From contig JASEFA010000005.1 in assembly GCA_030019365.1 (NCBI GenBank), forward strand, positions 62,001 to 126,000: a stretch of 64,000 bases of DNA. The letters run 5' to 3'. The DNA is from Bacillota bacterium. GTDB lineage: Bacteria; Bacillota; Sulfobacillia; JACIYH01. The notes beneath the pieces are model-generated. The model saw only the letters and a program-made list of their open reading frames with translations, did not search any database and was not told the origin of the DNA. The position numbers and the translations under genes were made by a program. Of the stretch, positions 3,805 to 54,275 are shown piece after piece; position 1 is the stretch's first letter; the number at the start of each line of letters is the position of its first letter.

Positions 3805-3864
3805 TGCCAGGCGCGAGCAGGGTGCCCCCTCGCTGGTCCCTCGCTGGAGGGCTGGGGCAGCAGT

Positions 3865-4067
3865 GTCAGCGGACTGACCGCGAGACGGTCTTAACCGTCA
3901 GTTAGCTGACCATGTGCCCGCTCGGGCTGGACCCACGGGAAGCGACGGTAAGCATAATACGGCACATAGGCCACATATGTAAACGGATGCGGCTCGCGTG
4001 GGGAGGTCGGGCTGCTTCAGTGTCAGCGCACTGACCGTGGTGGGCCGCTGAGTGTCAGCGCGCTGAC
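3865..4067. promoter_or_regulatory. Four GTCAG-N4-CTGAC palindromes upstream of htrA
   Basis: The 407-base gap between the MFS gene and htrA holds four copies of a 14-bp inverted repeat with arms GTCAG and CTGAC: 3865-3878 (centre CGGA), 3897-3910 (TTAG), 4022-4035 (CGCA) and 4054-4067 (CGCG, a perfect palindrome). Three copies share the longer context AGTGTCAGCG. The copies form two pairs, each offset by exactly 32 bases, about three helical turns. This is what an operator array for a dimeric DNA-binding protein looks like; the regulator is not identified. A possible TATACC -10 at 4151-4156 follows. Nothing else was recognised in the gap. Confidence 0.7.
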
Positions 4068-4211
4068 TGTGTCGGGATCTGCCGCCGCGATCGCGGCGGC
4101 TGGACTGGCGCTCCGGGGTGCGCCTTCACATTGTTTTCACATTCTTCGTCTATACCGGAGATGGCCGCCCGCAGCCCACGAGGTGCGGGCGCTGGGAGGT
4201 CGAGCAAGATT

Positions 4212-17097: not shown

Positions 17098-17169
17098 GTG
17101 GAGGATGCCGGAAGGATGTACCCTTTCCTCACGGTGCACGCCCCCTTCCCTCGAAGGTCGTCACACGCC

Positions 17170-17365
17170 GGCCGCGCGGGCAGGTTTCCTGGCTCCAGAT
17201 CGTCGCTGGCGGCGCCTTCCCGTTCTCCCTTTCAGGTCTGGCTGAAGGACGAGAGAACAGTGGCATCCGTGCCGCCGGCTTCCCGGTTACAGTGGCGGGA
17301 CCGCTCAGGATTTGCACCTGATTCCCTATTAGCCCCATAGGGGGCACCCGTACGGCATATTCAGT
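17170..17365 (-). promoter_or_regulatory. Cobalamin riboswitch of the cob/btu operon
   Basis: Read on the minus strand, the region holds GGGAATCAGGTGCAAATCC (17311-17329), then GCCACTG segments, and the B12 box AGCCAGGAAACCTGCC at 17178-17193. These are the conserved core pieces of the AdoCbl aptamer in the right order. It precedes btuF and the nine genes that follow, so the whole operon should be shut down when cobalamin is plentiful. The GTG of the D,D-carboxypeptidase lies on the other side, so this is a divergent control region. Confidence 0.95.
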
Positions 17366-17460
17366 TGGCAGGAGCATTCTACCACGTGCGCGAAGCCCAG
17401 ACAAGGCTGCTGGAGGTGCTACCGGTGGCGGGGGTCGGAGGTGGATGGCGGAGGTGGACA

Positions 17461-22986: not shown

Positions 22987-25439
22987 ACCGGAGTGGCCCC
23001 TGCCTGCTCCGGCAGGAGGAAGGCCCTTCGCGTGCGGAACTCCTCCTGCTTGCCGGGATTCCAGCTCTGCACGGGCCGGTAGTATCCCACCACCCGGCTC
23101 CACACTTCGGTCGCGCTCTGGCACCGGGGGCATGTGGGGTGTTCTCCTTTCAGGTAGCCGTGCCGGGGGCAAATGCTGAAGGTGGGAGTAACGGTCAGGT
23201 AGGGGATACGGAAGCGGCCCAGGACCCTTTGCAGGAAGGCCTTCAGGGCTTTGGTGTCCTCGACGCTCTCCCCCAGGAAAGCGTGGAAGACGGTTCCCCC
23301 GGTGTACCTGGTCTGCAGTTGTTCCTGCAGGGTGAGGGCTTCGAAGACGTCATCTGTGTACCCGGCCGGAAGGTGGGTGGAGTTGGTGTAGTAAGGTTCC
23401 TGGTCACCCGCGGTGACGATGTCCCGGTAGCGCAAGCGGTCAATCCGGGCCAGCCGGTAGGATGCTCCTTCGGCCGGGGTGGCCTCCAGGTTGAACATCT
23501 GGCCGGTTTCCTGCTGGAACCCCACCAGCACCTCCCGCATGAATTCCAGCACCTCGAGGGCGAATTGCTGGCCGGCCGGGGTGCCGATGTCCTCGCCCAG
23601 GAAGTTGAGCAGCGCCTCGTTCATCCCCACCAGGCCGATGGTGTTGAAGTGGTTGGCCCAGTGTTGTCCCAGGCACTCCTTCACCTGGCGCAGGTAGTGG
23701 CGGGAATACGGGTACAATCCACCCTCGCTGAACCTCTCCAGCACCTGGCGCTTGATGAGGAGACTGTCGCGGGCGAGAGCCATGAGTTCCCCCAGGCGTG
23801 TGAAAAACCCGTGGGGCGTCTTGGCCAGATAGCCGATGCGCGGCAGGTTGATGGTGACCACCCCTATGGAGCCGGTGAGGGGATTGGCGCCGAACAGCCC
23901 TCCGCCCCGGCGGCGCAGTTCCCGGTTGTCCAGGCGCAGGCGGCAGCACATGCTGCGCACGTCTTCCGGCTGCAGGTCGGAGTTGATGAAGTTGGCGAAG
24001 TATGGGATGCCGTAACGGGCGGTCATGGCGGCGATGCGGTCGGCCACCGGACTCTCCCAGTCGAAGCCGGGGGTGATGTTGTAGGTGGGGATGGGAAAGG
24101 TGAATATGCGGCCGCAGGCATCACCCTCCAGCATCACCTCGCAGAACGCGAGGTTGAGCATGTCCATCTCCCGCTGGAATTCGCCGTAAGGGGCTTTCTC
24201 CAGGCGCCCCCCCACTATGACCGGTTGCCCGGCCAGGTACGGGGGTACCGTCACATCCATGGTCAGGTTGACGAAAGGGGTCTGGAACCCCACCCGGGTG
24301 GGCACGTTCAGGTTGAAGATCGCCTCCTGGAGGGCCTGTTTGACTTCGTGATACCGGAGACCGTCGTAGCGGATGAAAGGCGCCAGGTAAGTATCGAAGT
24401 TGGCCAGGGCCTGGGCTCCTGCCGCCTCGCCCTGGAGGGTGTAGCAGAAGTTGACGGCCTGGCCCAGGGCGGTGCGGAAGTGCCTGGGAGGGGCGCTTTC
24501 CACCTTCTGCCCCACGCCGGCAAACCCGTGGAGCAGGATGTCGGCCAGGTCCCAGCCACAGCAGTAGGGGGCGAGGATGCCCAGGTCGTGGATATGGAGG
24601 GCTCCGTCCTGGTGGGCTTCCCGTACGCGAGGGGGGTAGATCTTCTCCAGCCAGTACCGGGCGGAAACGGCGGAGATGATGTGGTTGTTCAGTCCCTGCA
24701 GGGAATAGTTCATGTTGCTGTTTTCGCTCACGCGCCAGTCCAGCTGGTCCAGGTAGTCCTGCACCATCTTCTCGGCGTTCACGAGCAGGGCGCGGAAGTC
24801 CCGCAGTTCCTGGTGCTGCTGGCGATACAGGATGTAGGCCTTGGCGGTGCGGGCATGGCCGTTCTCGATGAGGACCTTTTCGACGATGTCCTGCACGTCC
24901 TCCACGGTGGGAAACCGGTCGGTGAACTGGTGGGCGACGATGGCCACCACCTGGTCGGCCAGGCGTTCGGCCAGGGCCCGATCCTGTCCTCCCACGGCCC
25001 GCGCCGCCTTGAAGATCGCGCTGGCGATCCTCTCCCGGTCGAAGTCGACCAGGCGCCCGTCGCGCTTCACGATCTGCTCCGGAGTCATTCCGGCACCCTC
25101 CTTTCTCGGTGTACGGTAAGGGGCTGCGGTCAGGTGAGTGCAGGAGATGTAACGGCCCTTTCCGGCCACGCAGTCGACCAGACCCTGCTGCTGCGCCGCG
25201 GCCAGCGCCTGGCGTACGGTGGTACGGCTGATGCCGAACCGCCTGCACATTTCACGTTCCGACGGGAGACGCTGGCCCGGACGGAGTTCGCCGCTGTCCA
25301 CCCATGCGGTGATCAGTTGGGAGAGCTGGGCGTGCAGCGGGACCGGCCGATCATGATTCACCGGGGGTCCTGGTGGCGCTGTCGTTGCCGAGGCCCCGAG
25401 GGGCCCCGGATTCCCGCTTTCCGGGTGGCATGGGTCCAT
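22983..25439 (-). CDS. nrdD: Class III ribonucleoside-triphosphate reductase NrdD, open in frame to an N-terminal GntR-type DNA-binding domain
   Basis: From the ATG at 25088 (AAAGGAGG upstream) the protein has 701 residues, a complete NrdD. It has an ATP-cone (VKRDGRLVDFDRERIASAI), catalytic core, zinc site CPRHGYLKGEHPTCPRC and glycyl-radical motif RVVGYYRP near the end. The same frame stays open for ~117 codons upstream and encodes a GntR/YtrA-type winged helix (PLHAQLSQLITAWVDSGELR, RLPSEREMCRRFGISRTTVRQ split over ~45-90, GKGRYIS) with no stop before NrdD. Either a fusion protein is made, or the internal ribosome site yields NrdD alone. The 25439 start has GGAGG 12 bases upstream; a GTG at 25361 is another option. 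Confidence 0.9.
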   Translation of the reverse strand: MDPCHPESGNPGPLGASATTAPPGPPVNHDRPVPLHAQLSQLITAWVDSGELRPGQRLPSEREMCRRFGISRTTVRQALAAAQQQGLVDCVAGKGRYISCTHLTAAPYRTPRKEGAGMTPEQIVKRDGRLVDFDRERIASAIFKAARAVGGQDRALAERLADQVVAIVAHQFTDRFPTVEDVQDIVEKVLIENGHARTAKAYILYRQQHQELRDFRALLVNAEKMVQDYLDQLDWRVSENSNMNYSLQGLNNHIISAVSARYWLEKIYPPRVREAHQDGALHIHDLGILAPYCCGWDLADILLHGFAGVGQKVESAPPRHFRTALGQAVNFCYTLQGEAAGAQALANFDTYLAPFIRYDGLRYHEVKQALQEAIFNLNVPTRVGFQTPFVNLTMDVTVPPYLAGQPVIVGGRLEKAPYGEFQREMDMLNLAFCEVMLEGDACGRIFTFPIPTYNITPGFDWESPVADRIAAMTARYGIPYFANFINSDLQPEDVRSMCCRLRLDNRELRRRGGGLFGANPLTGSIGVVTINLPRIGYLAKTPHGFFTRLGELMALARDSLLIKRQVLERFSEGGLYPYSRHYLRQVKECLGQHWANHFNTIGLVGMNEALLNFLGEDIGTPAGQQFALEVLEFMREVLVGFQQETGQMFNLEATPAEGASYRLARIDRLRYRDIVTAGDQEPYYTNSTHLPAGYTDDVFEALTLQEQLQTRYTGGTVFHAFLGESVEDTKALKAFLQRVLGRFRIPYLTVTPTFSICPRHGYLKGEHPTCPRCQSATEVWSRVVGYYRPVQSWNPGKQEEFRTRRAFLLPEQAGATPV

Positions 25440-25606: not shown

Positions 25607-25664
25607 CGGTTCGCTCGCCTATGAGCATCACGCGCTGCCCCCTTTCGACCGAAGGTGCAGGCTT

Positions 25665-25860
25665 CTTCACGGGCGGGCAGGTTTCCTGACTCATGGGTCA
25701 CTGCCTTCCCCGGCCTTCCCGGGCCACATGGGCCCAGTGGCATCCTTCGGGGTCGGCTACCCATTCACAGTGGCGGGACCGTCCAGGATTCGCACCTGGT
25801 TCCCTTTTGACCCCCGCGTGGGGGCACCCGCGCGCGATCTGCGGTTGTCAGCGGTATTCT
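25665..25860 (-). promoter_or_regulatory. Cobalamin riboswitch upstream of nrdDG
   Basis: Minus strand: GGGAACCAGGTGCGAATCC (25788-25806), then GCCACTG pieces, and the B12 box GAGTCAGGAAACCTGCC at 25676-25692. Layout equals the riboswitch at 17170-17365. The next gene downstream on that strand is nrdD, so cobalamin should repress the B12-independent class III reductase. Confidence 0.95.
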
Positions 25861-53363: not shown

Positions 53364-54275
53364 TCACTGTCCCCACTGCCTGCCACCCGCCCGGGACGGG
53401 CCGGTAGCTGACAGCAGGCACGCGCACTCCTGCAGGAAGCGCGTCACCTCCTCAGGGCCCCTGAGCCGGTAGGCGGCCCCGGTGGGGCCGGGTCCCACCT
53501 TGATGGTGACGGCGCGACGACCCAGGGATTCGAAGGCATCCTCGTCGGTGAGGTCGTCCCCGATGTATACGGGAAGCACCCGCCCGCTCCATTCTCCACC
53601 GTAGGTTTTCTCCAGCAACCACCGTACGGCTTTGCCCTTGTCCCAGGGGAGCTGGGGGCGGAGTTCCAGCATCCAGTGACCGGGCTGGAGGCGGAGCGAC
53701 GGGAACCTCGCCGCCACGTCTTGCACGGTGGCGATCACGTGCGGGCGCAAGTGGCGGGCGACCTGGCGGTAGTGTACGGCCACAGAGAGCCCCTTGTCCT
53801 CCAGCAGGCATCCCGGCACCGTCGCCAGATCCCGGCGCAGGGCGGCCAGTGCTGTTCTCACGGCGGGCACGGCCTCCTGGGCGCCGGCCGGGTACACCAG
53901 CTCCTCGGCGCCGGCCGGGCACGCCCGCCCATCCACGCCGGCCGGGTGCTCTCCGCGGTCCGGGCGGGGGGCAGGCCACCTGATTTCCAGGCCATGGACT
54001 CCCGCGTATCCGATGTCGGGCAGGCCCACCATGCCCAGGGCATCCTGTGCCCTGCGGCCGGTGACCACCCAGATGAGGCAGCGCGGGAGCGAACGGAGAG
54101 ATTCCAGCACCCTGCGGGTGTCCCCGGGCAGGCGGGCCCGTTCGGGCGAAGGGGCAAGAGGAGCCAGAGTGCCGTCCAGGTCCTGGAACAGTGCCAGGTC
54201 GAGCCCGGCCGCCAGTGCTCCTCTGATGCGCCGCCAGCACTCGTCGCCGGGCGGGGTGCTACACCTTGCCATCAA
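53364..54275 (-). CDS. otsB: Trehalose-6-phosphate phosphatase
   Basis: 303 residues. HAD phosphatase: motif I FQDLDGTLAPL with the nucleophile Asp, motif II VVTGR, and motif IV IGDDLTDEDAFESL near residue 245, which is characteristic of OtsB. It dephosphorylates trehalose-6-phosphate to trehalose. A repeated Pro/Ala/Gly-rich insert (HPAGVDG, YPAGAQE) lies in the cap region at ~115-135. It follows otsA on the same strand. Confidence 0.93.
   Translation of the reverse strand: MMARCSTPPGDECWRRIRGALAAGLDLALFQDLDGTLAPLAPSPERARLPGDTRRVLESLRSLPRCLIWVVTGRRAQDALGMVGLPDIGYAGVHGLEIRWPAPRPDRGEHPAGVDGRACPAGAEELVYPAGAQEAVPAVRTALAALRRDLATVPGCLLEDKGLSVAVHYRQVARHLRPHVIATVQDVAARFPSLRLQPGHWMLELRPQLPWDKGKAVRWLLEKTYGGEWSGRVLPVYIGDDLTDEDAFESLGRRAVTIKVGPGPTGAAYRLRGPEEVTRFLQECACLLSATGPSRAGGRQWGQ

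Follow-up and report, generated by a model that had tools for sequence, protein, structure and literature searches.

Upstream of htrA in the window, the 64,000-nucleotide stretch of DNA analysed here, lies a set of four palindromes with the same arms, which raises the question of what they bind and whether htrA is what they control. The preliminary description of this locus reported four copies of GTCAG-N4-CTGAC, with offsets of 32, 125 and 32 bp between their starts and with the centres CGGA, TTAG, CGCA and CGCG, and took them for the binding sites of a dimer. Copies, offsets and centres are all as it stated (Table 1); shuffled versions of the window contain 0.09 matches on average and never more than one, against the four of the real sequence.

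Table 1. Positions of the palindromic sites, the central motifs of array A, the further arrays and the adjacent nuclease-like gene
Feature	Location	Strand	Sequence	Context
Array A, whole	contig C5, window 3858..4074	.		the window's array; pair, AT-rich centre, pair; MFS gene stop 61 bp before the first core site, likely htrA start about 145 bp after the last
Site A1	window 3865..3878	.	GTCAGCGGACTGAC	palindrome, outer left
Site A2	window 3897..3910	.	GTCAGTTAGCTGAC	starts 32 bp after A1
Left central motif, array A	window 3948..3957	.	GTAAGCATAA	CATAA begins 42 nt past A2
Right central motif, array A	window 3975..3984	.	ATATGTAAAC	inverted relative to the left motif; 42 nt from the end of ATATG to A3
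Site A3	window 4022..4035	.	GTCAGCGCACTGAC	palindrome, inner right
Site A4	window 4054..4067	.	GTCAGCGCGCTGAC	starts 32 bp after A3
Array B	contig C2, sites at 252062, 252094, 252249, 252281			64 bp past an oxidoreductase gene; sigma-54 activator gene after
Array C	contig C9, sites at 53647, 53679, 53793, 53825			truncated sfsA-like reading frame on one side, HTH-nuclease gene on the other
Array D	contig C9, sites at 24760, 24792, 24938, 24970			flanked by the 3' ends of tRNA-Leu(CAA) and pyk
HTH-nuclease gene	L012 6644-7396	minus		array C upstream

Four equally built arrays

The source genome (G000; 2.94 Mb in 27 contigs) was searched by pattern, and the count of the 14-mer that the preliminary description had proposed gives 13 exact matches, whereas the reversed control pattern has none. 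Eleven of these fall into four arrays, A to D, while the remaining two (C8:92431 and C9:4590) are isolated and have centres that violate the Y..R preference. When up to three mismatches are tolerated, pairs with an 18-nt spacer number eight genome-wide, all of them inside the four arrays (control pattern, three), and no pair with intact GTCA-N6-TGAC exists elsewhere in the genome if spacers of 16 to 22 nt are allowed. Window shuffles, genome control and pair counts together rule out a chance origin of the palindromes. The initial observation was thus correct but belongs to something larger: array A is one of four equally built arrays.

Each array consists of two pairs of sites, and the offset within a pair is 32 bp in all eight cases, whereas the start-to-start distance between the pairs differs (157 bp in A, 187 in B, 146 in C and 178 in D). 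Eight bases, GTCA-N6-TGAC, are invariant among the 16 sites, whose extended consensus is CACnGTCAGYnnRCTGACnGTG. The two pairs are separated by an AT-rich centre that contains an inverted motif, GTTAnCATAA followed by TTATGnTAAC, the two halves being 15-17 nt apart in arrays A, C and D and in the copy of array C found in a genome of the same genus (G001). At most 12 of 1000 shuffles match the motif pair at any of these four loci; the form found in array A, CATAA-N17-ATATG, is equalled in 12. The pair in array B is not significant (173 of 1000 shuffles are as good) and its right motif is weak.

The distances between these motifs and the inner sites are all close to multiples of 10.5 bp. From the second site to CATAA they amount to 42 nt in three arrays (A, C and D), 63 nt in array B and 21 nt in the G001 copy; from the right motif to the inner site, A has 42, C 32, D 63, B with its weak motif 52 and the G001 copy 32. 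With the central motifs whole helical turns away from the inner sites, the arrays look like protein-DNA assemblies and not like RNA. The spacers of arrays A to D do not align to one another, and phasing that is kept across such spacers is what selection by a rigid nucleoprotein assembly would give. The arrays hence illustrate that helical spacing can persist while almost all other sequence is replaced. Of the earlier proposal, the dimer-type site and its pairing are borne out; cooperative binding and bridging between the pairs are plausible, given the constant offset and the helical register.

Relation to htrA and the neighbouring genes

If array A served htrA, one would look for it before htrA in relatives, as the preliminary description itself had suggested. 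Neither of the two genomes of the same genus, G001 and G002, has an array upstream of its htrA homologue or remnant, and the other three arrays of G000 adjoin unrelated genes, such that the genes near the four arrays have no function in common. Array D does not precede any gene and so cannot act in the promoter of a known one. The link to htrA drawn from position is therefore not upheld, and any role that array A has for htrA is probably not a conserved one. An operator for an htrA regulator of the CssR/CpxR type was likewise rejected, given the absence of arrays from the htrA regions of G001 and G002.

Further features were seen around htrA. Direct repeats, TTCACATTGTT and TTCACATTCTT (TTCACATTnTT), 11 bp apart, lie between array A and htrA at window positions 4125-4146 and are likely response-regulator boxes for htrA, separate from array A. 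Immediately past the array, at 4081-4100, stands a perfect 20-bp palindrome, GCCGCCGCGATCGCGGCGGC, which has no equivalent at arrays B, C and D. In G002, a sensor kinase gene is found upstream of the htrA remnant. Elsewhere in the window, two cobalamin riboswitches (Rfam RF00174) occupy 17162-17366 and 25659-25846 on the minus strand, and cobalamin biosynthesis genes are present as well.

The arrays could nevertheless belong to an ordinary transcription factor, unrelated to the nuclease-like protein discussed below, whose small regulon would include htrA and the sigma-54 activator gene. Arrays A and B do lie between co-directional genes, upstream of these two. Were CATAAT in the centre a -10 box, sites A2, C2 and D2 would be centred at a computed -61.5 and A1 at -93.5, which are typical positions of class I activators. 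The core, at 16 bp, also resembles the CooA consensus TGTCGGCNNGCCGACA, with a half-site of TGTCGGC and, in one D. desulfuricans case, TGTCAGC (PMC545781), and it shares with CooA and CRP-FNR operators the dyad of 14-16 bp with a gap of 4-6 bp. Those operators, however, do not come as four sites per array in paired 32-bp offsets. Moreover, the base after CATAA varies, unlike in a -10 box, and the single full CRP/FNR-type protein (HTH_Crp_2) detected in G000 is FNR-like: its recognition helix is KETAVR, and it matches FNR-type models, each below its cut-off. A CooA-like protein was not found in G000. Class I activation of the CRP type from the centre was discarded on the grounds of this free base, the lack of a gene at array D and the missing CooA-like protein. 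Since arrays are also not conserved at htrA or the sigma-54 activator gene in the two relatives, we regard an ordinary regulator as unlikely.

A nuclease-like candidate ligand

The gene that follows array C in G000, starting 252 bp past the end of the array, encodes what we call the HTH-nuclease. Its N-terminus is a winged helix that matches replication-initiator profiles (phrog_270), and its C-terminal domain matches homing endonucleases (phrog_9084). The protein carries the invariant motif EFNG-x-QH, and the invariant residues D149, E159, N161, G162, Q164 and H165 presumably fit a nuclease fold like that of Vsr and DUF559. A phage gene with the same domain as the nuclease part was found; no Pfam match exceeded its cut-off, no plasmid match was obtained, matches in SPbeta-like phages were weak, and the search for a solved relative returned none of use.

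Two paralogues in the same genome, at 47% and 42% identity, permit a comparison, as repeats precede all three copies of the gene (array C, L081 and L080). Upstream of L081 there are six repeats in steps of 34-35 bp, five of which read GTCA-N4/5-TGAC with at most one mismatch; upstream of L080 there are two pairs with a 34-bp offset around an AT-rich stretch. None of 300 shuffles was as good in either case, but about 2% of other G000 segments reach the same score, so that the joint association of repeats and HTH-nuclease genes is strong without being overwhelming. These repeats are not identical to the array sites: L081 has N4/5 where the arrays have N6, and L080 has another sequence. The GTCA/TGAC shared by L081 and arrays A to D adds to the association. 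Arrays A, B and D show no trace of the gene.

The record in the genus is uneven. G001 retains array C at the same position upstream of the HTH-nuclease gene, worn and with both pairs shifted together to an offset of 35 bp. In G002 the array is vestigial, with degenerate traces only, and the orthologue is an open frame that lacks the start of the winged helix. Two side observations concern this locus: a 36-bp tandem repeat at about L012 7510-7600, between array C and the gene, is absent from G001, and the sfsA-like frame that is truncated beside array C in G000 (L012 7830-8200) appears complete in G001 and G002. Although the adjacency of array and gene within one genus could be incidental, the HTH-nuclease is, as judged from sequence, the most likely ligand of the arrays, which are best read as docking sites for this protein and not as a switch specific to htrA.

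Each array would then be a docking element of roughly 190-235 bp, made up of four palindromes of about 20-26 bp in two 32-bp pairs. Dimers of the HTH-nuclease would fill both palindromes of a pair cooperatively, on the same face and three turns apart, and the two filled pairs might be bridged in helical phase over the AT-rich centre. At array C the protein may control its own gene in cis, and arrays A, B and D would be its gene-less targets, either in trans as a small regulon or as dispersed copies of an element. The explanation in its entirety could equally well prove right or wrong.

Known systems resemble this layout in part. Iteron arrays also combine regular repeats with an AT-rich stretch upstream of a gene with a replication-initiator-like HTH, but arrays A to D are chromosomal, dispersed at four loci with two pairs each, and the adjacent protein has a nuclease-like domain. 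REP elements are dispersed paired palindromes in intergenic DNA. The likeness to REP/RAYT (TnpA-REP) systems extends to the nuclease-like gene beside one set, whereas here the palindromes are perfect and have no REP foot, there are only four arrays, and the nuclease is of the Vsr/homing-endonuclease type and not HUH.

Another possibility is that the arrays are non-autonomous, MITE-like elements whose ends are the palindrome pairs and which the HTH-nuclease or an unknown recombinase would move. In both relatives, array B is missing between conserved flanks, which align at 85-89%; the intergenic region, about 467 bp long in G000, measures 149 and about 85 bp in the relatives, an insertion polymorphism in which gain and loss are not polarised. 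The symmetric order of pair, centre and pair would suit such an element, as would the ends of array D, which form 21-bp inverted repeats with one mismatch, the start of arrays A, B, D and the G001 copy of C at 58-81 bp past a stop codon, and the truncation of the sfsA-like frame at the edge of array C. However, the unalignable spacers mean that the copies are not similar along their length, and neither a target duplication nor a transposase was identified at these arrays, which leaves mobility of this kind rather improbable. A search of 154 genomes of the class revealed no arrays of the A to D kind elsewhere in it. Related pairs of different sequence occur in a few of its other genomes; those of G081 and G084 run out at contig edges and resemble the ends of insertion sequences. 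The tandem repeats of the GTCACGTAATTGACCCACC type at four same-class loci (L083, L084, L086 and L090) are mostly found where contigs end and are probably the ends of an insertion sequence.

Very little probability attaches to the centre being an Xer- or attP-like recombination site with the palindrome pairs as accessory sites. The accessory pairs would be symmetric and in helical register, array D lies beside a tRNA gene, and the inverted arms of the TTATGnTAAC type resemble XerD arms, but 15-17 nt separate these arms where 6-8 would be expected, no integrase was seen near the arrays, and a better dif candidate exists elsewhere in the genome. That candidate, a likely chromosomal dif site at C1:325903-325923 (L092), reads TATAA-TATACA-TTATGTTTAC. 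Least credible of all are RNA hairpins, from a non-coding RNA or a terminator element: every site can fold into a 5-bp stem with a 4-nt loop, but uncompensated substitutions (GTCAC..GTTGAC in D1, GTCAG..GTGAC in D2 and GTCAA..CTGAC in B2) speak against RNA stems, the offset of 32 bp is constant while the intervening sequence is free, and the arrays have no Rfam match.

Returning to the docking of an HTH-nuclease, palindromic-site arrays that have a cognate protein are a familiar kind; what is new is the phased layout of two pairs, its dispersal within a single genome and the connection to a winged-helix protein that is nuclease-like. No description of such arrays was found in the open-licence literature around DUF4143, PDC-S01, CooA and EDxHD. 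We speculate, at a low level of probability, that the four-palindrome array and the HTH-nuclease form an undescribed class of chromosomal element, whose gene-less arrays would have spread to htrA, the sigma-54 activator gene and the tRNA-pyk interval. This would be a nuclease-coupled regulatory or mobile system, functionally similar to RAYT/REP but built from unrelated parts, with the DNA code and 32-bp spacing of the PDC-S01 palindromes described below. In any case, an uncharacterised family of nuclease-like DNA-binding proteins is paired here with candidate target arrays in a testable form.

A shared code at PDC-S01 genes

The paired site also occurs far outside the genus. A scan for the exact pair, with its 20 fixed bases, across 84,980 species genomes returned 25 loci, mostly in Bacteroidota; viral contigs gave no match. 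Sixteen of the 25 have a full or nearly full gene for an AAA_14-DUF4143 ATPase close by, and one more has a fragment of it at a contig edge. Pfam and PADLOC identify this ATPase as PDC-S01, a candidate phage defence that is reported to rank fourth among prokaryotic defence systems by frequency and to await experimental validation (PMC12988326).

Thirty ATPase loci were compared from 18 of these genomes, which had been picked for containing the pair and hence form a biased sample. Of the 18 loci closest to the query, at about 50% identity or more, 15 have the GTCAG pair in front and three a different tandem palindrome, like AATCTTCAAT..ATTGAAGATT; the GTCAG pair precedes none of the 12 paralogues at 46% identity or less. 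A general rule of tandem palindromes at all PDC-S01 genes was dropped, as most of the distant paralogues have no significant pair in a blind test. Within one PDC-S01 clade of Bacteroidota (L121-L150), two tandem GTCAGYnnRCTGAC palindromes with an offset of 32 bp adjoin the -7 box, a position directly before the box that makes an autorepressor operator likely. From its sequence context, the 32-bp tandem palindrome is probably the cognate operator of this clade, to which the arrays have thus pointed.

The two systems share the 14-bp core GTCAGYnnRCTGAC and the exact pair offset, and both the PDC-S01 gene and the HTH-nuclease gene encode a winged helix; the published description of PDC-S01 adds a PD-(D/E)XK-type domain. 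They differ in that PDC-S01 has a single pair, in rare cases two, placed immediately ahead of the -7 box in the promoter of the ATPase gene, and in their outer flanks, ATTCM/KGAAT as opposed to the CAC/GTG of the arrays. A DUF4143 ATPase was rejected as the binder of the arrays in G000, which encodes no DUF4143 gene and has AAA_14 matches below cut-off only, in RarA-like, DnaX-like and ClpX-like frames. The shared code may reflect either common descent of the DNA-binding domain or convergence. In one locus (L033 3785-5047), the PDC-S01 gene carries the same palindrome pair on both sides as direct repeats, as if the unit had been duplicated or moved.
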